Source: a virus
Virus record (IMG/VR): IMGVR_UViG_3300031576_000120
Coordinates: 1 to 42,755 of that record
Strand: one strand, 5' to 3'
DNA length: 42,755 bases
Positions 2,435 through 42,618 of this stretch are shown piece after piece. The notes beneath the pieces were generated by a model. It worked only from the letters and a program-made list of their open reading frames with translations, did no database searches and was not told the DNA's origin. A program made the translations under genes and the position numbers. Positions within the stretch are counted from its first letter, which is position 1. Each line of letters opens with the position of its first letter.

Positions 2435-3326
2435 GAACCCGTCGCCTCTGGCGGAAGCACTCGCCAAGCTAGAGGCTGACCAGTCCTTCCGAAATCGGGA
2501 CGGGTTCAGCATCAGCGGCATCGGTAACTGTGCCGCACAGCAGTTGTTCGGTATCTCGGGCTTCTCACGGGGCAACCCGCCGCCTGGACGGACGCTGCTG
2601 ACGTGGCGGCTAGGGAACCTGATCGAGCAGGAGTTGTATTACCTGATCGAACAGGTCGCTGGCTACACCATCGTCGGGAAGCAGAAGCAGCTTGTCGGTA
2701 GTGGCCCGCCGAGAGAGGGACACACCGACGGGTTCATCCTGATGAATGACAAGCTGTGGCTGTTCGATGCTAAGTCTGCCAACTCCCGCTCGTTTGACGA
2801 GTGGCTGGCGGCAGCGGGTGAGAGCAAGTGGTCGGTGATGAAGTCAGGCTTCGCCAGCTTCGACCCGATCAACATCCACGACCAGTCGTACCGTGCGGTG
2901 CGTCAGGTATACGAGTCCTACTTCACGCAGGCGCTAGGATACCTTGAGCTAATCAACAACCGCGAGGAGTACCAGTCGTACCGCATCGACAACATGGCCG
3001 ACGTGCCAGAGGCGCTGGCCGCAGCCGCCATCGACGGTGCGGTGCCAATCGCCACTGAGGGCATGTACTTCTACGTGTACAGCAAGGACGACAGCAGGCT
3101 GTACGAGGAGTTCGTGCCTTACGACGGCAGCTACGTCGAAGAACGACTCCGCATGTTGGCAGAAAGTTACGAGCGCGTTGCCCCCATGCTCCCTGCCGAC
3201 ACCGCCGAGAAGCAGGACGAACTGATCGCCGTCATTCAGGAGTACAGGGAAGTACCGCTCAAGGAAGATGGCGACAAGCACTGGAAGTGTGTACGCTGTC
3301 CGTTCGTGGAAGTGTGCCGCCCTTGA
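2283..3326 (+). CDS. Cas4/RecB-like PD-(D/E)XK exonuclease with Fe-S cysteines
   Basis: 347 aa. The nuclease core shows D149 (GHTDGFIL) and D162-A-K164 (LWLFDAKSA), followed by a QxxxY-like helix. C83 upstream and C336, C339 and C345 at the C-terminus match the one-plus-three cysteine layout of the 4Fe-4S cluster in Cas4/AddB-type nucleases. Such enzymes resect DNA ends for recombination. Here it sits with an HNH nuclease and a SWIM protein, suggesting a recombination or DNA-degradation module. The first ~50 residues are basic and low complexity and overlap the SWIM gene by 152 bases. A GGGGTGAGG sequence precedes the ATG. Confidence 0.75.
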   Translation: MARRASTSTRSRKAAPEAPPKPRRASRRVARASDQAPTQTSEAATPSITVRNPSPLAEALAKLEADQSFRNRDGFSISGIGNCAAQQLFGISGFSRGNPPPGRTLLTWRLGNLIEQELYYLIEQVAGYTIVGKQKQLVGSGPPREGHTDGFILMNDKLWLFDAKSANSRSFDEWLAAAGESKWSVMKSGFASFDPINIHDQSYRAVRQVYESYFTQALGYLELINNREEYQSYRIDNMADVPEALAAAAIDGAVPIATEGMYFYVYSKDDSRLYEEFVPYDGSYVEERLRMLAESYERVAPMLPADTAEKQDELIAVIQEYREVPLKEDGDKHWKCVRCPFVEVCRP

Positions 3327-3352
3327 CACAGCGTTGTTGAATGTGCTAAGAT
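3323..3352 (+). promoter_or_regulatory. sigma70-type promoter before HNH gene
   Basis: TTGACA at 3323-3328, an 18-base spacer and TAAGAT at 3347-3352. The -35 box overlaps the stop codon of the preceding gene. The ten bases covering the -10 entry (AATGTGCTAA) are identical to those of the promoter before the tRNA array. Confidence 0.7.
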
Positions 3353-3689: not shown

Positions 3690-4060
3690 TGTTCTCGACC
3701 AAGGTGTATTTCAATGTCGTCGTGTCGGGCGACAAGTTCGCAGGCGAGACGACCATTAGCGCCGACGACAGCAAGACGTATCAGGAAGCCATGAGCGACT
3801 TCCTTTCGACTCTCGCTGCCAAGCTGGACGAATCGGGCGAGCCGCTGTTCGTCACGTTCGAGCCGCGCGGCATCGCAGGGGTGCCAGCGCCCGCAGGCAA
3901 GCCGCTTGAGCCAGCGCCCGCTGCGCTGAACCTCCCGAACTGCCCGTTCCACGGCGTTCCCGTGAAGCAGAAGAACGGTCGGAACGGCGTGTTCTACTCG
4001 TGCAGCGAGCGAAAGGCGGACGGCGGCTATTGCAACTGGAAGCCTGCTGAGGCGAAGTAG
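3689..4060 (+). CDS. hypothetical protein with C-terminal zinc ribbon
   Basis: 123 aa. The N-terminal ~60 residues look like a small alpha/beta domain, followed by a Pro/Ala linker. The C-terminal segment (CPFHG ... YSCSERKADGGYCNW) resembles a GRF or topoisomerase-type zinc finger that binds single-stranded nucleic acid. The start at 3689 follows AAGGAGC with normal spacing. An earlier in-frame ATG (3644) lies inside the HNH motif region. The function is inferred from the finger only. Confidence 0.6.
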   Translation: MFSTKVYFNVVVSGDKFAGETTISADDSKTYQEAMSDFLSTLAAKLDESGEPLFVTFEPRGIAGVPAPAGKPLEPAPAALNLPNCPFHGVPVKQKNGRNGVFYSCSERKADGGYCNWKPAEAK

Positions 4061-4713: not shown

Positions 4714-4743
4714 TTGACAGCCCCTCACGAAATGTGCTAACAT
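4714..4743 (+). promoter_or_regulatory. promoter of the tRNA array
   Basis: TTGACA at 4714-4719, an 18-base spacer and TAACAT at 4738-4743, followed by a leader of about 60 bases before the first tRNA. It is identical in spacing and in the AATGTGCTAA block to the HNH promoter. It probably drives the whole RNA array. Confidence 0.75.
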
Positions 4744-7010: not shown

Positions 7011-7093
7011 GGGGGCAGACGGGTTCGACAGCGACGCAGAACCGCACGTCGGAGTGTTGCTGGACAGGAGTTCGACTCTCCTTGCTTCCACCA
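7011..7093 (+). ncRNA. tmRNA-like tRNA-like domain without message region
   Basis: 83 nt. Acceptor GGGGGCA/TGCTTCC has the G3-U70 pair and A73-CCA needed for alanine charging, and the T arm AGGAG-TTCGACT-CTCCT is normal. The D side reads ACGGGTTCGAC, matching the conserved GG(N)TTCGAC of tmRNA 5' ends. There is no anticodon arm. Instead CAGCGAC and GTTGCTG form a 7-bp helix like tmRNA helix P2, closing a ~20-nt loop. No tag reading frame with a stop is present, so it may be a deletion remnant or a minimal functional form. A very aberrant tRNA is the alternative. Confidence 0.55.
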
Positions 7094-9229: not shown

Positions 9230-9291
9230 AAAGGGAACATGGACTACGAATTGTTCGGATGGCTCGGCCTACTACTTATCCACGGCAGTAG
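8947..9291 (+). CDS. possible overlapping zinc-knuckle protein
   Basis: 114 aa, read in a different frame from the 3' third of the MazG gene and into the next gene. It has an AAAGGGG ribosome site five bases before its ATG, an ordered CGLRPKPRGHTIKGCPACRKGH cysteine/histidine region (shown here as CG, H and CPAC positions near residues 19-35) and a plausible helix TREEVEQRLRQLLSL. Either this frame, the MazG tail, or both may be translated. A frameshift in the source sequence is another explanation. Confidence 0.45.
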   Translation: MAEAQHRVVFHPNPTTAYCGLRPKPRGHTIKGCPACRKGHAGYWAAVRAQSAAAHPGWPRKRHPTREEVEQRLRQLLSLRQATNSGRRLRGQLLEREHGLRIVRMARPTTYPRQ

Positions 9292-9565
9292 AATCCCACA
9301 ACTGATCCACATGCTAGCTAGCAAGCGAGCCACTGGCCTCTCGCTCAGCGGTACGGCAGCGATAGAGGCGGGGCTAGCTAGCTATCTCGTGTACGCCATC
9401 GTGCGGCACGACCGAGTGTTCATCGCCAGCAACCTGATCGGCTTCGCGCTGCAAGGGTTCGTGCTGTACCTGAACTGGCTGTGGCGAGAACGGAAGCAGC
9501 CGATTGCAACCAGCGACGGCGACTTCTATTGGCGAGAAGGCAAGTTGCACAGGGGGCGACCGTGA
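9239..9565 (+). CDS. SemiSWEET/PQ-loop membrane protein
   Basis: 108 aa. Three hydrophobic helices (about residues 5-24, 38-56 and 60-82) carry the PQ-loop signature in helix 1 and after it: RIPQLIHMLASKRATGLSL (P20-Q21, then K...GLS). This is the triple-helix bundle of SemiSWEET sugar transporters, which act as dimers in the inner membrane. The C-terminal ~25 residues are charged and cytoplasmic. It is unusual in a replication cluster. Start AAAGGGAAC-ATG. It contains two GCTAGCTAGC tracts. The sugar-transport role is inferred from the family; nucleoside or another small solute is possible. Confidence 0.7.
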   Translation: MDYELFGWLGLLLIHGSRIPQLIHMLASKRATGLSLSGTAAIEAGLASYLVYAIVRHDRVFIASNLIGFALQGFVLYLNWLWRERKQPIATSDGDFYWREGKLHRGRP

Positions 9566-15763: not shown

Positions 15764-16078
15764 TTACCACCCCATGATCAACTCCTTGATCGCTGCTACC
15801 ACTACAACCGCTGCGCTAGCTAGCAAGCCAGCGACTCCTGCCTTCTTCGCGTCTAGCTTGATCTGCCGAGCTACGACTACGCTAGCTTGCTCTTGAGTGT
15901 GCCGCGCGTCGTGCGTGGTCTGCCGTTCGTGCAGGCCGTTGATGGAGTCCTGCAACGTCGTGAAGCGTTCGCTGATGCCCTTGTCCAGTTGGAACAAGGC
16001 GTCATACAGGTTCGCTGTTGTCACCCGCGTCGTCTTGCGCTGTCGCAGGATCGTTAGCTGTTGCTTGCGCTTCACCAT
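15764..16078 (-). CDS. coiled-coil protein with C-terminal membrane helix, holin-like
   Basis: 104 aa. A basic N-terminus, a Gln/His-rich coiled coil (about residues 25-75) and a single C-terminal hydrophobic helix (about 82-100) give a tail-anchored layout seen in some phage holins and lysis regulators. A GTG three bases after the ATG gives better spacing to GAAGGAAG. It overlaps the preceding gene by 77 bases. The last helix contains a CTAGCTAGC tract (Leu-Ala-Ser). Confidence 0.5.
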   Translation of the reverse strand: MVKRKQQLTILRQRKTTRVTTANLYDALFQLDKGISERFTTLQDSINGLHERQTTHDARHTQEQASVVVARQIKLDAKKAGVAGLLASAAVVVVAAIKELIMGW

Positions 16079-20200: not shown

Positions 20201-20674
20201 TTAGCGTAGTACACTTTCCGCCGCAGCCGTCATGCGCCCCATCATGGCGAGATTCATCACGCGGTTCACATTCTCATCCACTTCGCTAGCTAGCAAGTCG
20301 AGTACCGTGTACCCCTTTCCCTCCCAAATTACTCGCTGGATCGTATCGAGCGCGTGAGCCGCACCGCTCAAGTTGGGCCAAAGATAGCCTTGTACGCGCA
20401 GGGCTAGCTTGCTAGTGAAGATCAGGAAGTGAATCTTCGCATTACCGATGTGCGACACACCCCCACGTCGTTCTGCTTGAAAGATGAAGTCGATCCCAGG
20501 AACGAACCCCTTGCCCACCAGCCACTTGTAGACGTGGTACTCGCTAGGCGAGCCGCCTGTCCGTGCTTCGAACGCTGCTTCCGCCTCACCCTTCGTCTCC
20601 TTGTCCAGTGTCTTAGACAGAGGAGCGAGGTCGGATAGGAAGCCGCGAGTGAATTGCTCAGCCATAGTGGTCAT
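20201..20674 (-). CDS. degenerate PD-(D/E)XK-fold protein in virion operon
   Basis: 157 aa. The segment GIDFIFQAERRGG...AKIHFLIFTSKLALRVQGYLW...DTIQRVIWEGKGYTVLDLL follows the layout of Vsr/DUF559-type nucleases (VDFLI...LAIEVDGxxWH...D..K...L...GY.V). The catalytic D and E are replaced (H in KIHFLI, R in LALRVQG), so it is probably inactive and structural. It overlaps the propeller gene by ATGA. A leading Met pair (MTTM) leaves the start slightly open. Confidence 0.5.
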   Translation of the reverse strand: MTTMAEQFTRGFLSDLAPLSKTLDKETKGEAEAAFEARTGGSPSEYHVYKWLVGKGFVPGIDFIFQAERRGGVSHIGNAKIHFLIFTSKLALRVQGYLWPNLSGAAHALDTIQRVIWEGKGYTVLDLLASEVDENVNRVMNLAMMGRMTAAAESVLR

Positions 20675-22597: not shown

Positions 22598-23263
22598 TTA
22601 CTCTACCCACAGCCCACCGGGACTCTCGATGATTTCCTGGTCGTCGTACCGCGCGATCTCTTGCTGCATGGCCTGCCATTGCCGCATGTGCTTCATAAGG
22701 TCATTATTGTCTCGGCCTGTCGCGCTCGTGTGAAGGTACGCCTTCGCCACGTTCAGCAGCACGGGGTACGGGATAACGCACGTATCCGCGCTCGCTGTCA
22801 GCAGCGGCGGATGGCGGTAGCCAATGAGTCGCATCTTGAGGCCCGTCTGGTTGAGGTTGTGCCGCGACATGCTGTTTTTGTCGAAGTGCAGCAGCACGTT
22901 CGTTGGCGTGGACGGGTCGCGCGTGAACGTCACAATGTCCAGCGGCACGATGAACTCGTACAGGCCAGAGCCAACGCTTGGCCCGTGCGCGTAGAGATTG
23001 CCGTTCGCCTCGGCCTTCGCTTCCGATAGGTAGGCGAGGTCGGAGTCGGTAATGTCGTAGTCGTAGGTGCCACTGGTGATGGTTACGAGCACAGCCGTCC
23101 GCTCCATGTGCTTCTTGCGGAGGACTTCGATGCTCGCATTGATGGAGTCTCGATACTCATCAATACCCCATCGCGCGAAGGCAGGGACACCAGCACTGCT
23201 GGCATCCCCCACCCTACGCGCTAGTTCTGTCTCAAGCTGGCTCCGTGTTCTGCTGTTCGCCAT
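22598..23263 (-). CDS. head-tail connector (gp6-like adaptor)
   Basis: 221 aa. The helical start (RSQLETELARRVGD...ARWGIDEYRDSINASIEVLRKKH) followed by a beta insert and C-terminal helices (AKAYLHTSATGRDNNDLMKHMRQWQ) resembles phage adaptor proteins that ring the portal. It is ordered between capsid and tail genes, as expected. It overlaps the glycosyltransferase gene by 32 bases. Confidence 0.55.
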   Translation of the reverse strand: MANSRTRSQLETELARRVGDASSAGVPAFARWGIDEYRDSINASIEVLRKKHMERTAVLVTITSGTYDYDITDSDLAYLSEAKAEANGNLYAHGPSVGSGLYEFIVPLDIVTFTRDPSTPTNVLLHFDKNSMSRHNLNQTGLKMRLIGYRHPPLLTASADTCVIPYPVLLNVAKAYLHTSATGRDNNDLMKHMRQWQAMQQEIARYDDQEIIESPGGLWVE

Positions 23264-26200
23264 CTTCTGCCGCCCGCGTCAATTCAGCCTGACGCTGCTT
23301 GATGTTCGCCTTCACACTCTTGTCGATCAGCCCCTTCCACTGCTTGTGGACTCGCTCCCAGGTGAAGCTGAGGGCATGTGTTCTGAGGGAAGCACGTAGC
23401 TCCCTCGTATCTCCATTATACCGCGCGAGGACTGCCAGAATCATCTCGTCCTCGTCCAAGGCGAACTCGCTCAGGATCGCGCCCACCTTGCCGATGCGCT
23501 CAGGCAGTGCGCCCTTGTCCGACACAATAGGGATCACGCCTGCCGCCTGCACTTCGAGTGCGGTGATGCAGTACGTTTCCTCGAACTTCGTTGGGTACAG
23601 CCAGTAGCTCGCCTTGGCAAACTCGACTGGCATCTGGTTCTGCGGGATGCGACCTACGTACTCGATGCCGTCCTGCTGTAGCTTCTGCACGATGTTCGCT
23701 CGGAAGGCGTTGTATGCGGCGTTGTTGGGGCCGTACATGGTGTCGGCCACGTCGAACCCGTAGTACACCTTCAACTCTGCGGCTGGCATCCTCTCACGGA
23801 TTGCAGGCCACATATCGAGCACCCGCTCTAGGCCACGGTCGAACGAGGAACTCCAAACGAACCGTGTAGGGTAGCGCTTGTCCTCGTCGGGCACGTCAGC
23901 GAACCGTTCGGGATCGATACCGTTTCCTGTGACCACGAGCTTGTCGGCCACATGCGGGTACTTCTCGGAGAACAGTCGCTTGTGCCATTCGGACAGCACA
24001 AGGATTGTATTGATTTCCTTGGCCCGCTCCGTGGTGATGCGGTCGCCGTAGTTATTGTCGTGGCACCACAGCCACTTCACAGCGGCGTTCACAGGGGCAT
24101 CGAATACCTCTGGAACTCGACTCGATACGAATAGTAGCGCGCCCGCGCCAGCGGCAGGGCCGCTTGGATCGAAGTGCTTGTAGTGGCGATAGAACACACC
24201 GTCCCATACACCGTCCACCATGCCGTACACGAACACAGCGTGTCCAGCATTGCGGAACAGCTTGGCCATTTCGACCACAGCCGTCTCGCTGCCGCCGATG
24301 CCCTCTCCGTCCACTTGCTCAGGGTTCCACTTCTCGACCGATGGGCCTACGTAGAACACTACTGGCAGCTTCAACTCCTCGCGCCTCTTGAGTTCGTACA
24401 GCCAGTTGCCGTATCCAGGCAGCATGTTGCCGACGCTCATGGCCGTCGTCAGAGTCTCGATGCTGGCTCCTACGCCTACCGCTAGGCGGCATAGCATCCC
24501 GAAGTCAAACTCGCGGACGTGGTGCAGATGCACACCGTCAGGCGTGTTCCGTAGCTCCGCGCCCACCGCTTGATGCGGCGTCGTGATGATCATGCGGTCG
24601 GCCACTTCGAGTCCGAACATGACCAACTGAGCGGGATCGATGATGTGCTCGATTACCTCAAGGCAGATCGATACGTCATGCGCCCCCACATCTTCGATAG
24701 CTAGCGAGCGAGCGTCGCCAGCGATGAACCGCATCTTGTCAGCTACGCCCCGCTCCTCGGCGTACTTTCTAGCTAGCTCGATGTTGTATGCGTTAGAGTC
24801 GATCAATGTCACTAGCCAGCCATACTTCTCTACCATGCGGATAGCGATCAGTCCGTCTCCCCCGCCAATGTCTACGATGGTCAGATTCTTTCCAGCCTTC
24901 GCGCGCTCCGCAGCGACCTTCTCAAGTCGCTCGAACACAGCCGCGACTCTCTGCATCTTCTCTGGTTCGGCTTCGTATGTGTGAGCACCACGACCAGCGA
25001 TGTACTTCTCGCCGTCGTAAATGTCCAGCGAGGGATCGAATAGGTGCTCGACCGCTGCGTATGCGGCCTGCTGCAACTGCTCGAACTCCTCTTGGTCAGC
25101 CACATTCTTCGGAGCGAACTTGAGGATTTCCAGTGCGTTCAGCGCGTCTCCACGATTCTGCAAGTGGTAGACCAAGTGCCGCAGGCTCTCAAGTGACTTC
25201 TGCGCGAGCAGTGTCTCTCGGTATCCGTTGAAGTAGTACGTGAACCCCTCGTGCTGACCCTTCGTGTACTCCAACGCCTTGCCGCAGATTTCGAGTGCCT
25301 GCTCCACGAATCCACACGCGGCCAGCGAGCGGTGCTCGTAGGCCCATCGGTTGAACGTGTAGCGTCCAGGGAGTACGAACAACTGGCTCGGTGGCATGGC
25401 CTTGTCGTTGGCCATCTTGTACCACGCCAGCGCCTTGTCGTGCTGGTTCGTCTGCGTCAGGCAGGCAGCGACGCCAAGGTACGAGTCGATGACCTCAGGG
25501 CGCACGTCGATGGCTTGGTGATACCAACCGATGGCACTCTCGAAGTCGCCAAGCTGCTGCGAGCAATCGCCCGCAAACACCGCAGCCTGCCACTGCTCTA
25601 GCTCGTTCTGAGGCTCGTTGTAGTAGTCCGCGAACCACTCACGGGCGTTAGCCCAATCCTCAGCACTGTAGAGCGAGTGCGCGATGTACAGCGTCGTGCG
25701 ACGGTCAGCGGGGTTCTCCTCATAGTACGCGCGCAGCAACTCAAGGTTGCGGTCGTGTCTAGTATCGCGGTTAGCCTGCCACTGGTGAACCCACGTCGCG
25801 TTGTCAAAGCGCACGATGCGGTGCGGCGTGTTTGTCGTCATCGTCTCGTGTACCGGACGTACCCATCGCCAGTCGAGAGACAAGCGGATTACCCTCTCTC
25901 GGTCATGCACGACCTGAGGATTGCCATTCTCGTCGGTCTGATAGACGTATGGGAATTGAATCGAGCCAACGTCTTCAGGTGCGTCCTTCACGATGGCAGG
26001 GATTGTTTCTGGACTCAGGATGTAGTCGTCTGCGTCCATCCACAACATCCATTCGAAGTCCTTTGGCGTGGCGTCCAACACACGGTTACGCGCGTCGGAA
26101 AAGTTCACGAACTCGAAGTCCTCTGTGATGAATGCGCTGTCCGTGTTGGCTTCGAGCCATGACATGACGATCTCACGGGTCGAGTCGTCAGACTCTCCCG

Positions 26201-26300
26201 CGAAACCGATAACGTAGAAGTCAACTGCTGGCTTGACGCTGTTCAGCGCCTTTTCAATGGTGTCCGCAGCATTGCGAACGATCATGTTGAGGACGATCAT
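23232..26300 (-). CDS. GT2 - TPR - methyltransferase - GT4 fusion protein
   Basis: 1022 aa with four parts. Residues 1-230 are a family 2 glycosyltransferase (MIVRNAADTIEKAL, FAGESDDSTREIV, DxD in WMDADD 88-92). Residues ~190-430 are TPR-like helices. Residues ~470-620 are a Rossmann SAM methyltransferase (motif I VDIGGGDG 476-483, then LEVIEHI). Residues ~645-1000 are a family 4 glycosyltransferase (GIGGSETAV 668-676, GNGIDPERF, AAGVIPIVSDKGALPERIG). It probably adds and methylates a glycan, on virion protein, DNA or the host surface. It lies inside the structural operon between a capsid-region gene and the neck gene. Confidence 0.85.
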   Translation of the reverse strand: MIVLNMIVRNAADTIEKALNSVKPAVDFYVIGFAGESDDSTREIVMSWLEANTDSAFITEDFEFVNFSDARNRVLDATPKDFEWMLWMDADDYILSPETIPAIVKDAPEDVGSIQFPYVYQTDENGNPQVVHDRERVIRLSLDWRWVRPVHETMTTNTPHRIVRFDNATWVHQWQANRDTRHDRNLELLRAYYEENPADRRTTLYIAHSLYSAEDWANAREWFADYYNEPQNELEQWQAAVFAGDCSQQLGDFESAIGWYHQAIDVRPEVIDSYLGVAACLTQTNQHDKALAWYKMANDKAMPPSQLFVLPGRYTFNRWAYEHRSLAACGFVEQALEICGKALEYTKGQHEGFTYYFNGYRETLLAQKSLESLRHLVYHLQNRGDALNALEILKFAPKNVADQEEFEQLQQAAYAAVEHLFDPSLDIYDGEKYIAGRGAHTYEAEPEKMQRVAAVFERLEKVAAERAKAGKNLTIVDIGGGDGLIAIRMVEKYGWLVTLIDSNAYNIELARKYAEERGVADKMRFIAGDARSLAIEDVGAHDVSICLEVIEHIIDPAQLVMFGLEVADRMIITTPHQAVGAELRNTPDGVHLHHVREFDFGMLCRLAVGVGASIETLTTAMSVGNMLPGYGNWLYELKRREELKLPVVFYVGPSVEKWNPEQVDGEGIGGSETAVVEMAKLFRNAGHAVFVYGMVDGVWDGVFYRHYKHFDPSGPAAGAGALLFVSSRVPEVFDAPVNAAVKWLWCHDNNYGDRITTERAKEINTILVLSEWHKRLFSEKYPHVADKLVVTGNGIDPERFADVPDEDKRYPTRFVWSSSFDRGLERVLDMWPAIRERMPAAELKVYYGFDVADTMYGPNNAAYNAFRANIVQKLQQDGIEYVGRIPQNQMPVEFAKASYWLYPTKFEETYCITALEVQAAGVIPIVSDKGALPERIGKVGAILSEFALDEDEMILAVLARYNGDTRELRASLRTHALSFTWERVHKQWKGLIDKSVKANIKQRQAELTRAAEDGEQQNTEPA

Positions 26301-28236: not shown

Positions 28237-28953
28237 CTAGCGGGCCGCTGTGCGGCGCTCGTTAGCCTTCTTCTGGATCGCATCGACTTCGCCCTTGAGC
28301 TTGTCCAGCTTCGCAATGGCATCTGGATCAGCCATATCAATCTGGTCGATCTTCTCAAGGAGAGCGCTCGTGCGATTAGCGCTCGTGCTTCGGCCCGTAT
28401 CGAACTTCCGCTCGCCTTCGGGCGTTTCGCCGTCCTTCTTCGCGGTAGCCTTCACAGGAGCTAGCGAGCCATCTGCCTTGAACTCAAGGATCAACTCGCG
28501 CGCTCGGAGGTCTAGCTCCTCAGGTGTACGAGCGCTTGAGAGTGAAGCGATCAGATCAGGAATCTCGTCCTTCTCGACGCCTAGCTCGCTCGCTAGCTCG
28601 TAAGCCTTCGCCTTTCGGCTGCCTTCCATGCCGAACTTGAGTGCGTCCGACACCACGCCACGTACCTTCGTGCGATCTTCCAGCGCTGCGCGAATCTTCG
28701 CTGCGGTTGCTGGCTCCACGCCAGTCAGGTCAATCTCGTCGCCAGCGGTCTGTTGCTGGTCGCCACCACCGCGCGTTACTGCATCCTGCTGCGCCTTGAT
28801 AGCCTGTCGCGCCAGAAAGTCTTTGCGCTTGCCCTTGAGGTCGGCTGCTGCCTTGGCTGCTGCGGCTACCGCTGGATCGGGCAAGTTGCCCTTGTCACCA
28901 CCGTCGCCACCTTCGCCGCCTTCGTCGTTAGGCTTAGTTACATCGTCAGCCAT
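28237..28953 (-). CDS. scaffolding-type protein
   Basis: 238 aa from ATG 28953 (AAAGGAG upstream). The N-terminus is acidic and Gly-rich (EGGEGGDGGD), the centre is helical with heptads, and the C-terminus is basic and helical (KLKGEVDAIQKKANERRTAAR), which resembles phage scaffolds that bind the capsid protein through a basic C-terminal helix. The gene is directly upstream of the capsid gene, the usual scaffold position. Two GCTAGCTCG-type tracts lie inside. Confidence 0.65.
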   Translation of the reverse strand: MADDVTKPNDEGGEGGDGGDKGNLPDPAVAAAAKAAADLKGKRKDFLARQAIKAQQDAVTRGGGDQQQTAGDEIDLTGVEPATAAKIRAALEDRTKVRGVVSDALKFGMEGSRKAKAYELASELGVEKDEIPDLIASLSSARTPEELDLRARELILEFKADGSLAPVKATAKKDGETPEGERKFDTGRSTSANRTSALLEKIDQIDMADPDAIAKLDKLKGEVDAIQKKANERRTAAR

Positions 28954-28978
28954 GAATTGCTCCTTTCCCTCTAGTTGC

Positions 28979-29007
28979 ATTATACAGCGTATACGTGCAT
29001 CCCGCAA
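28979..29007 (-). promoter_or_regulatory. promoter before scaffold/capsid
   Basis: Read leftward, TTGCGG (29002-29007), a 17-base spacer and a perfect TATAAT (28979-28984), then about 25 bases to the scaffold ATG. The -35 is only half-consensus. It would boost the capsid module independently of the long upstream gene. Confidence 0.55.
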
Positions 29008-29009
29008 CA

Positions 29010-32000
29010 CTACTCATTGTCGGCCTCAGGAGAGTCCGAACTTAGTTGAATCACACGGCCCAAGACCCTCTCTGCGACGGCCTGAGATTCCTTCGTCAGT
29101 GGCGCGCTTCCGAACCAGATTACCAATTGGGCATCCAATTCGGGGTTGTTGATGCGACGAATCTTGCGGGCGTTTGTCGTCAGCTTCTCTACCAACTTCC
29201 AGGCTGCTGACTTCTCAGGGAGATAGCCACCCTCTGCGGCGTCAGCGCGAACGAACTCCGCGAACTCCGAGTAGGTATCGAAACCGAAGTCTCCGTACTT
29301 CGCCTGTCCGGCTGCGCTATTCAGATACTCGATGGTGTCGTCTCGCATATCCCAATAGCCAGAGTCGTCAATCTTCTGCACGGCGCTACGGTACTCGCGC
29401 TCGGTCTGCGTCTTACCCGTCACGAAGCTGCGCTCAAGCGCGCTCACGCCTTCCTTTCCTAGAGCTTCCTCAATGCGGCTCATGGCTTCCGCCTCAGCCT
29501 CACCAAACTCCTCACCCGTCAGTACGTCTCCTGGCTGCAACTTCTGGTATTCCTTGAGCGTCTCGAAGTACAGGTCGCGCGCCTTACCCTGCGTAGAGTC
29601 GGCCTCGAAATCCTTGTCCTCAAGTACGTTGGCGCGCGCCCACGCGCTGCCCGTCATAATCTCTCCACGTCGCTCGGCATACTGTCGGCGAAAGAATGGG
29701 TCGGCCTTCACAACAGCATCCAACTCCGCGAGTTGCGTGTCCTTCGCCTGAGTGATTGTGCGGCCCAACTTTACTTGCTGAGACACGTTGTTCGACGCCT
29801 TGAATTGGCCAGCGTACTGCTCATCGAATGCAATCTTTTCCGCATCCTCAAGGCCACGGTAGCCGAACTGATCAACTTCTGCGCGGCGCGGGTCGCCCTC
29901 GGGATATGGATTGAACTTGCGGGCGGCTTCATTGCGCGCCTCACTTGTCGTCTGCTTGCTGGTACGCAGACCTGTCAAGCCGAATCCAACCGTGCTCCAA
30001 TTCTCCCCTTCCAAGCGCGCCTGAACTGCGAACGGCAATGCACTCTTTCCAAGGTGCAGAGCAATGTCGGGCAATCCGTCTACGTCCTCGTATGGCAGGA
30101 AGTCTCCGTTCGTGGTGCCTTCACCGATAGCTCCGACCACATTCGGGCCAGGAGCACCACGGTTCATCCAGAAGCGGGCTAGCGGGTTGTTTTCGAAGTC
30201 GTTGCCAATGAAATCTCGTGGACTGTTGAGAGACGACGCGACGCCAGCCATCAACTGTGTGATAGCGCGAATCTGCCCGCCGATTCCAATCCAGTCTTCG
30301 TTCACTTCAAGGCTCAGGAACTTCTTTCCGCTTAGCGGGTTCAGACCCTCCTTGATGGTTTCCAGAATCTCGTCTGCTGACTTACCTTCTGCGTGGCCCT
30401 GTACCATAGCTGCGGCGCTGTACACACCAGCGGCTCCCGTCACGAGACGGCCCAATGACGTGAATGCACTGCGTCCGCGAGGATTGTTAATTCCGTACTT
30501 CAAGTCAGCGATGAGACCAACCGTGCTGCGAAGCAAACGGGGGCTGAACGCCAACCACATGCTCTCGAATGAGCGCTGGTTTGCCATCACACCGAGTGCG
30601 CGAGGGTCTAGTCCACCAGTCAGGTTGTTGATATGTGCTGCAAGGTCGGACAACTTACCGCCGTTGCGTGTCCAGCTTTCTTCCATCGCTTCCCACATCA
30701 TCACGCGAGACTGAATCAGGAAAGTGTTGTAAGACGCCTGAAATCGTCCGAACGTCTGTCGGCTGAATCCCTGTCGGAAGTTTGTCAGTGGCTCGCCAGC
30801 AATCGGCAGTTGCTTGATAACTGCATCGACGTTGAAACCACCAGTGATGGTAGCGCCCTTGAAGAACTCGTTGTCGCCCATCGCCATGCCGTACTTCGCG
30901 GCCTTCGCGTAGGTAGCTCGGTGCTCGCGCAGGAATCGAGACTGAACCGTTGGGTCAATCCATGCGAGATAGTGTGCGAAGGTTGCCTTCGACCACACGC
31001 CAGGGTCGCGCGCCAACACAGGCAAGCCATGTACGAACGGCGCAGCAAAGTCTCCGACACTGGCAAGGTATCGAATAGAGTTACCTGTGCGGTCAATCTG
31101 ACGCCATACGAAGCCTTGCGCGTTTACATCTAGGCTGTCCACAATGCGCGTCAGTTCCTTTACATCCTCACGCGGATAGAACATCTTGTGCCATTCCTTG
31201 ATGCCGATACGATCCTGGGCCTTGCCGAATAGATTGCCAGTAGCAACCTCAGTCTTGGCCGCAGTCTTTACAGCGTTGCGGTACGAAGCGAAGATGGGCT
31301 TCGCGTTCTTCTCCAACTCGGCAATCTTAGCGGCCTCTGTCACACGCATTGCCTCAAGACGCTTCTGCGCGCTGTTGCGCGCTGCGCCAGTGACGCTGGC
31401 AACCAAGTTCTCTTGCGCCTTCAATGTCGTGCGGCTCAGCGCCTTTGCCTCGTTCAGCACCGTGGCAGTTTCAAGGAACTTGTTGGTGATGCCATTGTCC
31501 ACAAGGTCGCTGGCCTTCACACCGAACTGCGCCACAGCGTCGCTAAGCTGCTTCTCAGCAACTTCCTGGTACGCTGACTTGACGTGCAGTTCCAGCACTG
31601 CGCGCACGTCGTTTTCGTATTCGATGCCCGCTGCCACGCCATCCTCTGCGTTCTCAAACAGACGCTTCAAGTTAGGATCGGTTACGCCCTCAATCACGAC
31701 ACCCTTCACACCCTGCACATGGCGAGGAATGTAGAAGCCGTCCTTCAAGATGTTGCGAGCCTTCAAGCCCGCGAGCACACGCATTGCCTCCACTTCCTTA
31801 GCTGTGCGGATTACATCGTCAATGACAGCACTCTGCGAGTCAGTCAACAGATACTTCGCGGGATTGCGAAATACGTCATTCCAGTGGAGTGATAGTCCAG
31901 CCGTCTTACCAGCCACGTTCGTTAACTGACCACTGCGTGTGAACTGGAATACGTGCCCGCCAGCCTTCGTGAAGCCAAACAATCGGCCCGTCACAAGCTG

Positions 32001-34349
32001 TGCGTGTCGGTCAATCGCCTTGGCCAATGCAACCTGAGTCAACCCTTCCGTCGCCACAATCTGGCGCGCGTAAGCGGTCACGAGTCGCCCGATTGGGCTA
32101 TTGCGAAGGATAGACGGATTAACTCCGGTCTTGCCAACGAGGAAACGCAAGATGCTGCGGTTCCACAAGAATCCGCCTGGATCGACAGTCACGACCTCAT
32201 TCACGATGCCATCAGGCCCACTCAGTGGTCGAAGGTGCTCGATGATGTTGTTGCCGCTATTCAGCGGTGCATCCAACTTGCGCCCACCCATCACAATGAC
32301 AGACGCCTGATCAAACACACGGATGATAGGGTGACCCTGCTTGTGAATCAAGACGCCAGAGATACCCTCAGCTTCCATCACAGCATCACGGAACGCCTGC
32401 TTCGCAGTGCCGCCTGCTTCAACGGGGATCGCAGCGTACTCTGGTGAGTTGACGATCTTCTCAATCAGGTTGGCGTGTTCCGCACTGTTCGAATCGATGA
32501 TACGAAGTCCCGCAGGCAGACGAGTCATAAGAATGTCGCCCGCCTCGGATGCAAACTGCTGTGCCGTCTCAACGGCTGGCGTCAGATTGACCACAGGGCG
32601 CGGTGCTGCGCCGAGCATCTGGCCGCTCGCTAGTGGGTTCTCAGCCGTAATGTGGGACACATCATCGATGCCACGGTAGAGCACTTCCTCACCTGTGGTT
32701 GTGATGATGCCCGCTACAGGAGCCTCAAGCCCCTGCGAAAGTTGCGGTACTGACGGACGTAGTGCGCCAACCTCGCTAGTCAATCGCGCCAGCACAGCCT
32801 TGCGGGGTGCATGTCGCGCTGTCCACCATGCAGCAATACGGTAACTCGTGTCAGGAGCCATCTTGCCGAACGCTGTCATAGGAATCTTGACCGTCGCGCC
32901 AGCAGGCTTCAAGCCCAACTTCGCGCCAAACTTCAACTGCGCCCCACCAATCAGTGTTGATGGTACAGCAATGAAACGCAACGGTGCGCCAAGGTCTACC
33001 CAATCTGGTAGTGCCGTCTCCTGGCCGATGTTGATTCGCTTGCTCTCGCTACGGAAGAACTCAGTCCAGGCTTCGGGATTCTCGAATCCCCCGAACTGGT
33101 CGATCTGCGTCTTGGCGTAGTCAACATACTCGCGCGTGTGCGAGAAGTTCACGTCACCCGTAGCAGCGTTGAATGTATCGTTGATGAATGCAGCGCCACC
33201 GTAACCGACGCTCTCTACCGCACCCTCAGCAGTGCGGCTAATCAACTCCGTCTCACGGTCGAACGTGCGAAGCGGGTGGGCCATCGCATCGTCAATGTCG
33301 CTCAGGGACACGTCGAGGAAGAACTCACTATTGTAGATTGGAGCGCCAATGTCGGCCAACTTGCTAACCACACCATCAGGCAGCGGAGCGAGCGCCTTGC
33401 CGATCAACCCCGTGATGCCAATCTTCGTGAAGAAGCTGTCCTTCTTGGAAATGACGTTGCCAAGCTCCTCGCGCGTTAGCAACGAGCGGAAGCCAGGATC
33501 GTTCTCGTACTTCTCACCACGGAAGTCGGCCCACTTTCGCCATACACCTTCCTCATTCGGATGGATGTACCATTGTCGCGTCTCGCCCTTCTCAATGTCG
33601 CCCTTCTCAAAGGACACAGCAGCCCGCTGCTCTGGTGTAGCTTCTGCCCAAGGAATGATCACGCCCTCACTGTCCTCAAGGTACAGTGGGTCACGACCGC
33701 CGCTGCGATAAGTACCTGGGGTGCCGCCTACCTTCTGGATGGCGTCAAGGTCAGAAACCGCTTGATCAATCTGACGGAAGTAGAGCGTCTCAAAGCGCTC
33801 ACGATCCTCGTCAGTCTTGAGTTCCGTCGTGGCAAACTCTACTAGCTCGTCGCGCACCGCAGGCGGCAGAGCAGCAACAGTCTGCAAGTTGTTCGAGAAC
33901 TGCTCAGGATTCTTCACGTTCGCAGCGCGCGCAGCTTCGACCAATTCCTTGCCGCCGTAGCGGTTGATTGGGTCGTCGGCAAACGCCTTCTCCTCGCGCA
34001 CCGCACGGATGAACGGGTCGTCAGCGAGTGCCTGGAAAATGTCCATCGGCCCCTTCGTGCCACTCAATCCGCTAGCTAGCGAGTCTGCGAAGAACTGCTC
34101 TGAGAGGTCGTCAGTTTGCTTGCTAGCATCCTGAATGTCCAGGTCGCCAGAGCGTAGCTCGCGGAGCATTCCCTCTACGCGATCTTGAGGCAGCACCGAG
34201 CTATCTGAGAAGTCCTTGATAGCTTGCTCGCTAGCTTGCTCGCGCTTGCGCTGCTGCTGCGCCTGCCCTTCGGGAGACGCGGCGAACTCGCGCATATCGC
34301 GCTGGAAGTTTCTCTGCTCTTGGCTGTCTGTTTCGTACTGGCTTGGCAT
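29010..34349 (-). CDS. giant virion/ejection protein with ART-like module
   Basis: 1779 aa. The Gln/Arg-rich start (residues 1-60) is coiled-coil-like. Residues ~555-690 (EVLYRGIDD ... AEGISGVLIHKQGHPIIRVFDQASV) resemble the ADP-ribosyltransferase-type modules of phage polyvalent proteins. Residues ~1350-1600 (LMAGVASSLNSPRDFIGNDFENNPLARFWMNRG, in part) match the LPD-type regions of large virion proteins. Several hydrophobic helices (e.g. GAAGVYSAAAMV) could cross a membrane. The size, position next to portal, and lack of a tape measure fit an internal protein ejected with DNA. The function is inferred. Confidence 0.6.
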   Translation of the reverse strand: MPSQYETDSQEQRNFQRDMREFAASPEGQAQQQRKREQASEQAIKDFSDSSVLPQDRVEGMLRELRSGDLDIQDASKQTDDLSEQFFADSLASGLSGTKGPMDIFQALADDPFIRAVREEKAFADDPINRYGGKELVEAARAANVKNPEQFSNNLQTVAALPPAVRDELVEFATTELKTDEDRERFETLYFRQIDQAVSDLDAIQKVGGTPGTYRSGGRDPLYLEDSEGVIIPWAEATPEQRAAVSFEKGDIEKGETRQWYIHPNEEGVWRKWADFRGEKYENDPGFRSLLTREELGNVISKKDSFFTKIGITGLIGKALAPLPDGVVSKLADIGAPIYNSEFFLDVSLSDIDDAMAHPLRTFDRETELISRTAEGAVESVGYGGAAFINDTFNAATGDVNFSHTREYVDYAKTQIDQFGGFENPEAWTEFFRSESKRINIGQETALPDWVDLGAPLRFIAVPSTLIGGAQLKFGAKLGLKPAGATVKIPMTAFGKMAPDTSYRIAAWWTARHAPRKAVLARLTSEVGALRPSVPQLSQGLEAPVAGIITTTGEEVLYRGIDDVSHITAENPLASGQMLGAAPRPVVNLTPAVETAQQFASEAGDILMTRLPAGLRIIDSNSAEHANLIEKIVNSPEYAAIPVEAGGTAKQAFRDAVMEAEGISGVLIHKQGHPIIRVFDQASVIVMGGRKLDAPLNSGNNIIEHLRPLSGPDGIVNEVVTVDPGGFLWNRSILRFLVGKTGVNPSILRNSPIGRLVTAYARQIVATEGLTQVALAKAIDRHAQLVTGRLFGFTKAGGHVFQFTRSGQLTNVAGKTAGLSLHWNDVFRNPAKYLLTDSQSAVIDDVIRTAKEVEAMRVLAGLKARNILKDGFYIPRHVQGVKGVVIEGVTDPNLKRLFENAEDGVAAGIEYENDVRAVLELHVKSAYQEVAEKQLSDAVAQFGVKASDLVDNGITNKFLETATVLNEAKALSRTTLKAQENLVASVTGAARNSAQKRLEAMRVTEAAKIAELEKNAKPIFASYRNAVKTAAKTEVATGNLFGKAQDRIGIKEWHKMFYPREDVKELTRIVDSLDVNAQGFVWRQIDRTGNSIRYLASVGDFAAPFVHGLPVLARDPGVWSKATFAHYLAWIDPTVQSRFLREHRATYAKAAKYGMAMGDNEFFKGATITGGFNVDAVIKQLPIAGEPLTNFRQGFSRQTFGRFQASYNTFLIQSRVMMWEAMEESWTRNGGKLSDLAAHINNLTGGLDPRALGVMANQRSFESMWLAFSPRLLRSTVGLIADLKYGINNPRGRSAFTSLGRLVTGAAGVYSAAAMVQGHAEGKSADEILETIKEGLNPLSGKKFLSLEVNEDWIGIGGQIRAITQLMAGVASSLNSPRDFIGNDFENNPLARFWMNRGAPGPNVVGAIGEGTTNGDFLPYEDVDGLPDIALHLGKSALPFAVQARLEGENWSTVGFGLTGLRTSKQTTSEARNEAARKFNPYPEGDPRRAEVDQFGYRGLEDAEKIAFDEQYAGQFKASNNVSQQVKLGRTITQAKDTQLAELDAVVKADPFFRRQYAERRGEIMTGSAWARANVLEDKDFEADSTQGKARDLYFETLKEYQKLQPGDVLTGEEFGEAEAEAMSRIEEALGKEGVSALERSFVTGKTQTEREYRSAVQKIDDSGYWDMRDDTIEYLNSAAGQAKYGDFGFDTYSEFAEFVRADAAEGGYLPEKSAAWKLVEKLTTNARKIRRINNPELDAQLVIWFGSAPLTKESQAVAERVLGRVIQLSSDSPEADNE

Positions 34350-39032: not shown

Positions 39033-39037
39033 CCTCA

Positions 39038-39134
39038 AGCTAGCGAGCTAAGCTCTTAGCATACAAACAAGCTGTACTAGCTCTCTAGCTCTAGCTTAGT
39101 ATACTCAGCTTGTTAGCTTGTTGTCAAGAGCTAA
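39038..39134. repeat. (GCTN)n repeat cluster at promoter
   Basis: AGCT/AGCG/GTTAGC-type tetranucleotides surround and form the spacer of the leftward promoter. The unit is the same as at 1743-1857 and 40193-40482. Confidence 0.7.
39098..39127 (-). promoter_or_regulatory. leftward promoter for terminase-structural operon
   Basis: Read leftward, TTGACA (39122-39127), an 18-base spacer and TATACT (39098-39103). It has the same TTGACA-N18-TAnnnT design as the rightward promoters at 3323 and 4714. Confidence 0.75.
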
Positions 39135-39135
39135 G

Positions 39136-39166
39136 CTGACGACCCACTTCGTGGGCACCCCGTCAG
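39136..39166 (-). terminator. bulged hairpin after small operon
   Basis: CTGACG (39136-39141) pairs with CGTCAG (39161-39166), and CCCAC-TTC-GTGGG forms the inner stem. It sits 11 bases past the stop of the 39178-39708 gene and before the next promoter, which suits termination of the short upstream operon. No U run is present. Confidence 0.45.
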
Positions 39167-39177
39167 AGCGGTCAGGA

Positions 39178-39708
39178 CTAACTTGCTAGCTCGCTCAGAG
39201 AAAGTGGAGCCGCTTCCTCAACCCTTGAGTCCTCATCAAGTCCGTCGTCCAGGTCTGTCTCGGCCTGCGCGTCCTCAAGGAGATTGTCCATTTCTTCGGT
39301 CGGCAGTGGTTCGCTATCACTTAGTTCGATACTGCTGGCTGTGGACTGAGCCAGTCGGATCAATTCCTTGGCAGCGGTGGCACGGACGTTCGACTTGGTT
39401 TCGGGGTCGAGTGCTAGTTCGTACAGGACGCTCACCATGACTGGCGCGAGCTTGTTTCCCATGATGGCAGCCATGATCCAGGGGCGTCCCTTCACCATGC
39501 CGAGCACCTTCGTTACCTGGGATTGGGCGACGATGCGCTTCCGCTGGTCGTAACCCAGGTCGGGCCACAACTCGTTGCTGATAGTAATCAGCGCCTTGTC
39601 TGGATTCATAATCTTGCTGATGAGCAGGGCGATGTGTCGAGGCTCCATCTCTTGGAACAGCTCAGCGACCTGACTGTTGACGAGTGCGACTTCCCTGTTG
39701 CTTGGCAT
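39178..39708 (-). CDS. possible small terminase subunit
   Basis: 176 aa. The N-terminal ~130 residues are helical with a helix-turn-helix-like ITISNELWPDLGYDQRKRIVAQSQV, and the C-terminal 45 are acidic and disordered. Size, acidic tail and location one gene before the terminase fit a small terminase subunit, which binds packaging sites, but no clear family motif was seen. The last three codons (Leu-Ala-Ser) are a GCTAGC tract. Confidence 0.5.
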   Translation of the reverse strand: MPSNREVALVNSQVAELFQEMEPRHIALLISKIMNPDKALITISNELWPDLGYDQRKRIVAQSQVTKVLGMVKGRPWIMAAIMGNKLAPVMVSVLYELALDPETKSNVRATAAKELIRLAQSTASSIELSDSEPLPTEEMDNLLEDAQAETDLDDGLDEDSRVEEAAPLSLSELAS

Positions 39709-40142: not shown

Positions 40143-40319
40143 CCGGCCCTCCGCGTAGCACTACGAAAATGTTTTGAAGAGTTCACTCCCTACTAGCGAG
40201 CGCGCAAGCTGTAAACTAGGTGGGGGGTATCGGCGCTCGCTAGCTAGCGAGCTAGTAAGCGAGCTAGCTTCCTTAGCTCGTATCCGATCCTTCGCCACTA
40301 GCTCGCTTGCTATACACAC
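40143..40319. other. 5' leader region of leftward operon
   Basis: About 180 bases without a gene, between the promoter and the first leftward ATG. It contains part of the (GCTN)n cluster and an 18-bp perfect palindrome at 40235-40252. No other structure is evident. Confidence 0.5.
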
Positions 40320-40482
40320 ATAGTAGCTCGCATGATACCAGTGTGTCAAGCTAGCATACGAGCTAGCGAAGCTAGACGGACGCGCGCTAACTAGCTCGCT
40401 AGCGAGCTAGTGTGGCGCTGATCATCGCTCACTCGCAAGCGAGCTAGCAAGCGCGGCATCCTCGATAGCTCGCTAGCTAGTA
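40193..40482. repeat. main (GCTN)n / GCTAGC cluster with palindromes
   Basis: The densest tract of the GCTN tetranucleotide family, with units GCTA, GCTC, GCTT and GCGA in runs on both strands. Perfect palindromes of 18 bp (40235-40252) and 22 bp (40390-40411) lie within it. It overlaps the leftward promoter and sits at the strand-switch point, which suggests replication or transcription control. Confidence 0.75.
40320..40349 (-). promoter_or_regulatory. leftward promoter at strand switch
   Basis: Read leftward, TTGACA (40344-40349), an 18-base spacer and TACTAT (40320-40325), inside the GCTN repeat cluster. It drives the small-gene operon at 40142-39178. Confidence 0.75.
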
Positions 40483-42249: not shown

Positions 42250-42272
42250 GGAGTGATAACGCAGCGTATGGA

Positions 42273-42289
42273 CTGCGTAAAGTGAAAGG
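42273..42289 (+). repeat. gene-leader repeat, copy 1
   Basis: CTGCGTAAAGTGAAAGG, 17 bases, just upstream of the 42302 gene. An identical copy lies at 42602-42618 before the next gene. Confidence 0.65.
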
Positions 42290-42580: not shown

Positions 42581-42601
42581 GCGTGAGCCTGCGTGTACGG
42601 G

Positions 42602-42618
42602 CTGCGTAAAGTGAAAGG
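42602..42618 (+). repeat. gene-leader repeat, copy 2
   Basis: Second copy of CTGCGTAAAGTGAAAGG, with similar bases (CGTGTACGGG versus CGTATGGA) just upstream of both copies. It overlaps the candidate GTG start of the last gene. Confidence 0.65.

Follow-up and report, generated by a model that had tools for sequence, protein, structure and literature searches.

Nine discrete arrays of GCTAGC-type boxes in a tailed-phage genome: possible sites of a replicon-maintenance or regulatory DNA-binding protein

In the genome of one tailed phage the palindrome GCTAGC returns in clusters both between and inside genes, which raises the question of whether it is a word spread over the whole genome, a by-product of composition, or a set of sites read by a protein. 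The window analysed here is the whole virus record, 42,755 bp long; it carries the large terminase and major capsid protein genes of a tailed phage, together with replication genes for a DnaB-type helicase, a Prim-Pol primase and a family A DNA polymerase. Genes run rightward to ~15.3 kb, leftward from ~39.7 to 15.6 kb and rightward again past 41.1 kb, and since gene-dense sequence extends up to both ends, the record is probably incomplete at both.

The preliminary description had seen a genome-wide repeat family and a striking enrichment of CTAG, recalling highly iterated palindromes. Against a Markov expectation GCTAGC is clearly over-represented, with 44 copies against 12.65 (order 1) or 17.1 (order 2) expected, and so are GCTAGCTAGC (7 against 0.04-0.17), GCTAGCGAGC on both strands (11 against 0.25) and AGCTAG on both strands (69 against 22.9). 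Close GCTAGC pairs number 23, compared with a mean of 6.6 and a maximum of 15 when 44 sites are placed at random, and in pairing at 20-160 bp GCTAGC comes third among the 927 frequent hexamer classes; a total of nine loci with two copies at most 160 bp apart is unexceptional for 44 scattered sites (mean 5.6, maximum 13; 5000 trials). These nine loci, whose limits were drawn post hoc, span 1,253 bp together and hold 32 GCTAGC, that is, all of the excess. Once they are masked, GCTAGC (12 against 10.7 expected), CTAG (105 against 103.8) and GCTAGCTA (0 against 0.3) stand at background. The family is therefore a set of nine discrete arrays and not a genome-wide word: it is real, non-random and exceeds composition, as had been claimed, but it is no highly iterated palindrome, and a HIP1-like word, one palindrome over-represented throughout a genome, is ruled out by the same background. 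Nor does the striking enrichment of CTAG hold, as its 156 copies in the whole window, against 159 (order 0) or 118 (order 1) expected, make it neither rare nor strikingly enriched.

Three of the loci are at least mainly intergenic, and six lie inside genes as arm pairs, one of them with three arms. All three clusters named earlier (1743-1857, from ~39037 on, and 40193-40482) are present, as are the in-gene copies near 9313, 15815, 20285, 24700, 28581-28599 and 34071, each of which has another arm within ~45-155 bp. The loci and the features associated with them are as follows (window coordinates; a strand is given where the feature has one):

1743-1857: array 1, intergenic, upstream of gene 1862-2434; GCTAGCGAGCTAAGCTCT is common to arrays 1 and 8
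9312-9385: in-gene pair, within the PQ-loop protein gene 9239-9565
15814-15892: in-gene pair (array 3), within the 104-aa gene 15764-16078, beside the convergent gene junction
20284-20416: in-gene pair, within the 157-aa gene 20201-20674
24697-24783: in-gene pair, within the 1022-aa gene 23232-26300, in the part encoding the methyltransferase domain
28458-28600: in-gene pair, within the 257-aa gene 28237-29010
34070-34241: three-armed in-gene array, close to the 5' end of gene 29010-34349 (1779 aa)
39037-39196: array 8, intergenic save for its overlap with the 3' end of gene 39178-39708 (last codons, -LSELAS)
39098-39127, minus strand: sigma70-like promoter candidate TTGACA-18-TATACT, 11/12 and the best in the window, a consensus match only; within array 8 and upstream of the late genes that run leftward
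39178-39708, minus strand: gene for a 176-aa protein, all-helical by prediction, between the hub and the terminase
40193-40482: hub array (array 9), 8 GCTAGC, in a non-coding divergent region
40320-40349, minus strand: sigma70-like promoter candidate TTGACA-18-TACTAT, a consensus match only; inside the hub array

The arrays are under selection at the DNA level. When synonymous codons were shuffled with proteins and codon counts kept, none of the 300 shuffles reached the in-gene counts, which are 26 for GCTAGC (shuffled mean 11.9), 5 for GCTAGCTAGC (mean 0.05) and 7 for pairs 20-160 bp apart (mean 0.64). Composition or codon bias as the cause of the in-gene counts is thereby ruled out; the preliminary description had staked its family on counts beyond base and codon composition, and both the Markov counts and the shuffles bear it out. 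It had also remarked on the recurrent codons CTA GCT AGC for Leu-Ala-Ser. That reading does recur, but it is no protein signal: GCTAGCTAGC is a 10-mer identical to its own reverse complement, and its two other frames read TAG, so that only one frame is free of TAG and the Leu-Ala-Ser frame is forced. In two genes the arms fall inside a Pfam domain match (PQ-loop 4-58 and methyltransferase 475-557), which suggests that these arms arose by substitution rather than insertion.

The arrays share an internal order. The flanks of in-array GCTAGC run on as (T/G)AGC, in 4-bp steps. All 11 plus-strand copies of GCTAGCRAG in the window are in arrays, three of them in the hub; it is the leading motif, with one copy in each of eight loci, always on the plus strand. 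Its reverse complement occurs nine times, seven in arrays and two outside, and in those eight loci the reverse motif, if present, always lies at the right whatever the gene direction. Since the leading motif is on the plus strand in 8/8 loci, in rightward and leftward genes alike, its orientation is independent of transcription. Spacing of the loci is more even than that of random points, with a coefficient of variation of 0.355 in a post hoc test (p = 0.002 on a circle, 0.006 on a line and 0.00015 with the last two loci merged). The hub also contains an 18-bp perfect palindrome, GCTCGCTAGCTAGCGAGC, at 40235 and an imperfect 29-nt inverted repeat (40236-40264/40382-40410). Cumulative GC skew has its minimum near the hub and its maximum near 15.5 kb, close to array 3, and also tracks gene direction.

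Other features of the record deserve mention in their own right. Between 4809 and 7169 stand 27 tRNA genes, almost back to back and covering all 20 amino acids, in a phage of 42.7 kb; the gaps of this tRNA array hold repeats that suggest further tRNA-like genes. Within it an 83-nt Rfam tmRNA match (7011-7093; 48.8-57.4 bits, cut-off 47) spans both ends of the model with ~290 internal positions absent, so that the tRNA-like domain of a tmRNA is present and the tag-coding part is not, and its fold is no better than that of shuffled sequence (z -0.27). Promoter-like sites at 3323-3352 and 4714-4743, the second directly upstream of the tRNA genes, both carry TTGACA and AATGTGCTAA[GC]AT. The 1022-aa protein of 23232-26300, encoded between capsid and adaptor/tail-type genes, combines a methyltransferase domain with TPRs and two glycosyltransferase domains. 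A 24-bp direct repeat (42266-42289 and 42595-42618, 92% identical) lies close to gene boundaries at the window's right end. Restriction-type words are strongly avoided across the window: 30/64 hexamer palindromes are absent where 1.5 would be expected, and GGWCC (0 against 82), CCSGG (3 against 81) and CCGG (31 against 188) are depleted, as are non-palindromic words such as GCACGC (2 against 61-63). The palindrome depletion, to 0.45 of expectation, is common to several capsid relatives, some of which are even lower.

Searches for the phage itself yielded no close relative, just chance-level short DNA matches or distant protein matches. Viral contigs scanned with the terminase, capsid, polymerase and portal-position proteins gave no related locus, searches with an 18-mer and with the arm-pair pattern gave no relative, and a 16-mer search returned nine loci without marked enrichment; plasmid searches found no related sequence. 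A literature search found no paper describing such GCTAGC arrays, which is not proof of absence. A capsid-profile scan returned 80 loci, and among the 62 of at least 9 kb examined (the 18 shorter ones were left out of the GCTAGC count) the top count, 6, belonged to L075, a distantly related phage whose capsid protein is 34% identical to that of the window. Of the eight GCTAGC in its record, six fall in a 285-bp stretch of a gene that matches a phage replication protein and is followed by a DnaC-like loader gene, and the record has no AAA_31 match; the cluster has the look of an origin embedded in an initiator gene.

Genome contigs scanned with a 17-mer resembling the hub gave seven loci from unrelated taxa, and among these L104 alone has dense GCTN arrays on a CTAG-normal background. 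An archaeal MAG locus, L102, has many GCTAGC, but CTAG is enriched throughout it (114 against 30.7), and it was not counted as an array case. L104 is a 42,250-bp contig of Mangrovactinospora gilvigrisea, in which a ParA gene (AAA_31, E 1.4e-32) has dense GCTN arrays on its upstream side and a shorter GCTN run stands on the far side of the ParA operon; the product of the parA partner gene is not ParG-like. All four copies of GCTAGCTCGCT in this genome are on the L104 contig, and the paired-array pattern GCTAGCTAGCN{2,32}GCTAGC was found in 1/150 genomes, at four places, all on that contig around parA.

Homologues of this ParA occur at 24 loci in 22/150 genomes, and GCTAGCTAGC is found at two of the 23 ParA loci other than L110 (0.084 expected), namely L114, whose two GCTAGC overlap, 781-785 bp upstream of parA, and L128, where it lies 48-52 bp upstream (L138 coordinates) and where the gene after parA matches Pfam ParG with 22.1 bits (cut-off 21.4). 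With the L128 ParA as query, 24 loci in 21/396 genomes were recovered; the three closest, all actinobacterial, L138 (the same place as L128, 100%), L139 (88%) and L140 (74% identity), each have two GCTAGC at most 75 bp upstream of parA. The upstream test covered 16 of the 24 L128-type and 15 of the 24 L104-type loci, leaving out more distant homologues and loci at contig starts. Thirteen of the 16 have no GCTAGC within 1 kb, and 13 of the 15 lack such arrays, two of these 13 having a single GCTAGC within 1 kb. Over the 23 L128-type loci other than L138, GCTAGC is below expectation (13 against 27.3), and the upstream signal of this type is thus confined to close orthologues. The GCTN-type arrays near parA in actinobacterial contigs (L104:6520-6880 and 3735-3770; L139:1428-1441) are candidate centromeres. 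L104 and L075 were picked by GCTAGC content before their genes were inspected, and L114 and L128 were found via ParA. Because the arrays of the former two lie at replicon-maintenance genes and the boxes of the latter two upstream of parA, we read the window arrays as of replicon-maintenance type.

With somewhat less than even confidence, we favour an explanation in which the nine loci are arrays of tetramer boxes, one hub at 40.2 kb with eight satellites, on which a DNA-binding protein with a regulatory or replicon-maintenance role assembles cooperatively; a partition-like role is mildly preferred to an origin-like one. RHH centromere-binding proteins and iteron-binding initiators bind side by side on repeated boxes, and the predicted protein would do likewise on GCTA/GCKA/NAGC steps that form mostly inverted arms. 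The hub, in a divergent control region, would be an origin, centromere or control site, and the other arrays would be satellites across the genome, six of them accommodated in genes through the choice of codons. The putative protein may coat the hub, overlapping the leftward promoters there, and may bridge or hold the satellites for replication, segregation or compaction of phage DNA; binding protein, bridging and exact role alike are our inference. Set beside an RHH-type ParABS system (type Ib), the window has the array of short centromere-type boxes, in tetramer steps and at nine loci. This record, which is probably incomplete, contains neither a ParA Walker motif nor a significant homologue of the L104 ParA or its partner, and ParG and RHH_1 (PF09274 and PF01402) have no match in it. 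As two features of such a system are thus missing, we claim only that the arrays work like a partition system, not that they belong to one.

The main rival, on account of the promoter candidates in arrays 8 and 9, is an operator or stoperator network, in which a transcription regulator of the phage would use the boxes as operators, with arrays 1, 8 and 9 controlling promoters and the in-gene pairs acting as roadblocks or silencers. Two of the 17 sigma70-like matches in the window, the best (11/12) included, lie inside these two arrays with boxes upstream, within the spacer and downstream, and arrays 1 and 8 have a longer stretch in common. Dispersed in-gene dyad sites are known, too, in Cluster O phages, where their description likens them to the stoperators of Cluster A (PMC4351075). 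The six in-gene pairs, however, overlap none of the 17 matches, the motif orientation ignores transcription, and no repressor or integrase was found among the Pfam-scanned proteins; we consider this network unlikely. The same proteins revealed no methylase for the GCTAGC site, such as the preliminary description had proposed to look for, the sole methyltransferase domain being that of the glycosyltransferase-type fusion protein.

Packaging, with the boxes as pac-like sites for a small terminase, perhaps the 39178-39708 product, seems quite improbable to us. Repeated short boxes are a feature of P1 pac sites, and arrays 8 and 9 flank this mostly helical 176-aa ORF upstream of the large terminase gene, a position which suggests a small terminase or another DNA-binding protein. 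Nine dispersed pac sites would nevertheless be unusual, and a small terminase could not be shown, as the protein has no family match and its poor model (pLDDT 58.6) no fold match at E 0.001. Hairpins in single-stranded DNA or RNA, serving as priming or processing sites, would account for arms that are inverted repeats and that pair, left with right, in the minimum-energy folds of most loci. Yet most in-gene loci show no unusual degree of structure (plus-strand percentiles 1.5-53.7), and arms pair no better with their own partner (-20.1 kcal/mol, 8 pairs) than when swapped between loci (-20.9 kcal/mol, 56 pairs), which favours a shared recognition sequence and makes hairpins very improbable. 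Scarcely credible is a HIP-like host-wide iterated palindrome or a mobile repeat of host origin: the core is palindromic and the copies are many, but the background outside the nine loci, the few and taxonomically unrelated matches to the hub 17-mer and the arms inside domain matches all speak against it.

Under the preferred reading of the loci as box arrays for a cooperative protein, if they do bind one protein, the organisation, segregation or control of a small lytic genome would acquire a compact, testable model, and a link would emerge between partition and origin arrays on one side and, on the other, families of phage sites whose function is unknown, the Cluster O repeats among them; GCTA/GCKA box arrays would likewise be a sequence handle for overlooked centromeres in actinobacterial plasmids. 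To our knowledge, chromosome-like organising sites along phage DNA in the cell have rarely been considered. A more speculative form, which we judge decidedly unlikely, is that a lytic-looking phage with no recognisable partition genes spreads centromere- or iteron-like arrays evenly as phage-scale chromosome-organising sites, or that it makes use of, or titrates, a partition protein supplied by a resident plasmid.

Among known systems, the RHH-type ParF/ParG system with TP228 parH resembles the window in its 4-bp boxes in arrays, and GCTAGC boxes lie beside the parA/ParG-like pair of L128 and, in the closely related L139 and L140, upstream of parA. The box sequence of parH differs, however, and the window has nine arrays over the genome, six of them in genes, with no ParA, ParG or RHH_1; RHH centromeres described so far consist of a single array or a pair, rather than nine spread along a genome. 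Replication-origin iterons of the lambda-O style lie inside the initiator gene and are comparable in that GCTAGC repeats are in coding sequence, as in L075, where nearly all GCTAGC are at one place in a replication gene, whereas those of the window are dispersed and no such initiator was found. Chromosome-organisation sites of the matS/MatP and SBS/SlmA kinds are palindromic, fairly evenly spread, often in genes and independent of transcription, all of which recalls the window, but they belong to cellular chromosomes and are single fixed palindromes with known proteins. Phage-borne centromere arrays of short repeats are found in mycobacteriophage RedRock, whose parABS comprises parA/parB and two parS loci of eight 8-bp direct repeats (PMC7157519), whereas no par genes were seen in the window. 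A precedent for the dispersal is the 17-bp dyad repeat of Cluster O mycobacteriophages, which is described as palindromic sites spread over the genome, about one third of them in coding regions, with function unknown (PMC4351075). There the sites are more than 30 single fixed 17-bp copies, and here they are variable tetramer arrays, paired, at nine loci; dispersed dyad sites, some of them in genes, are thus a known kind on which the arrays of the window are a variation (PMC4351075).
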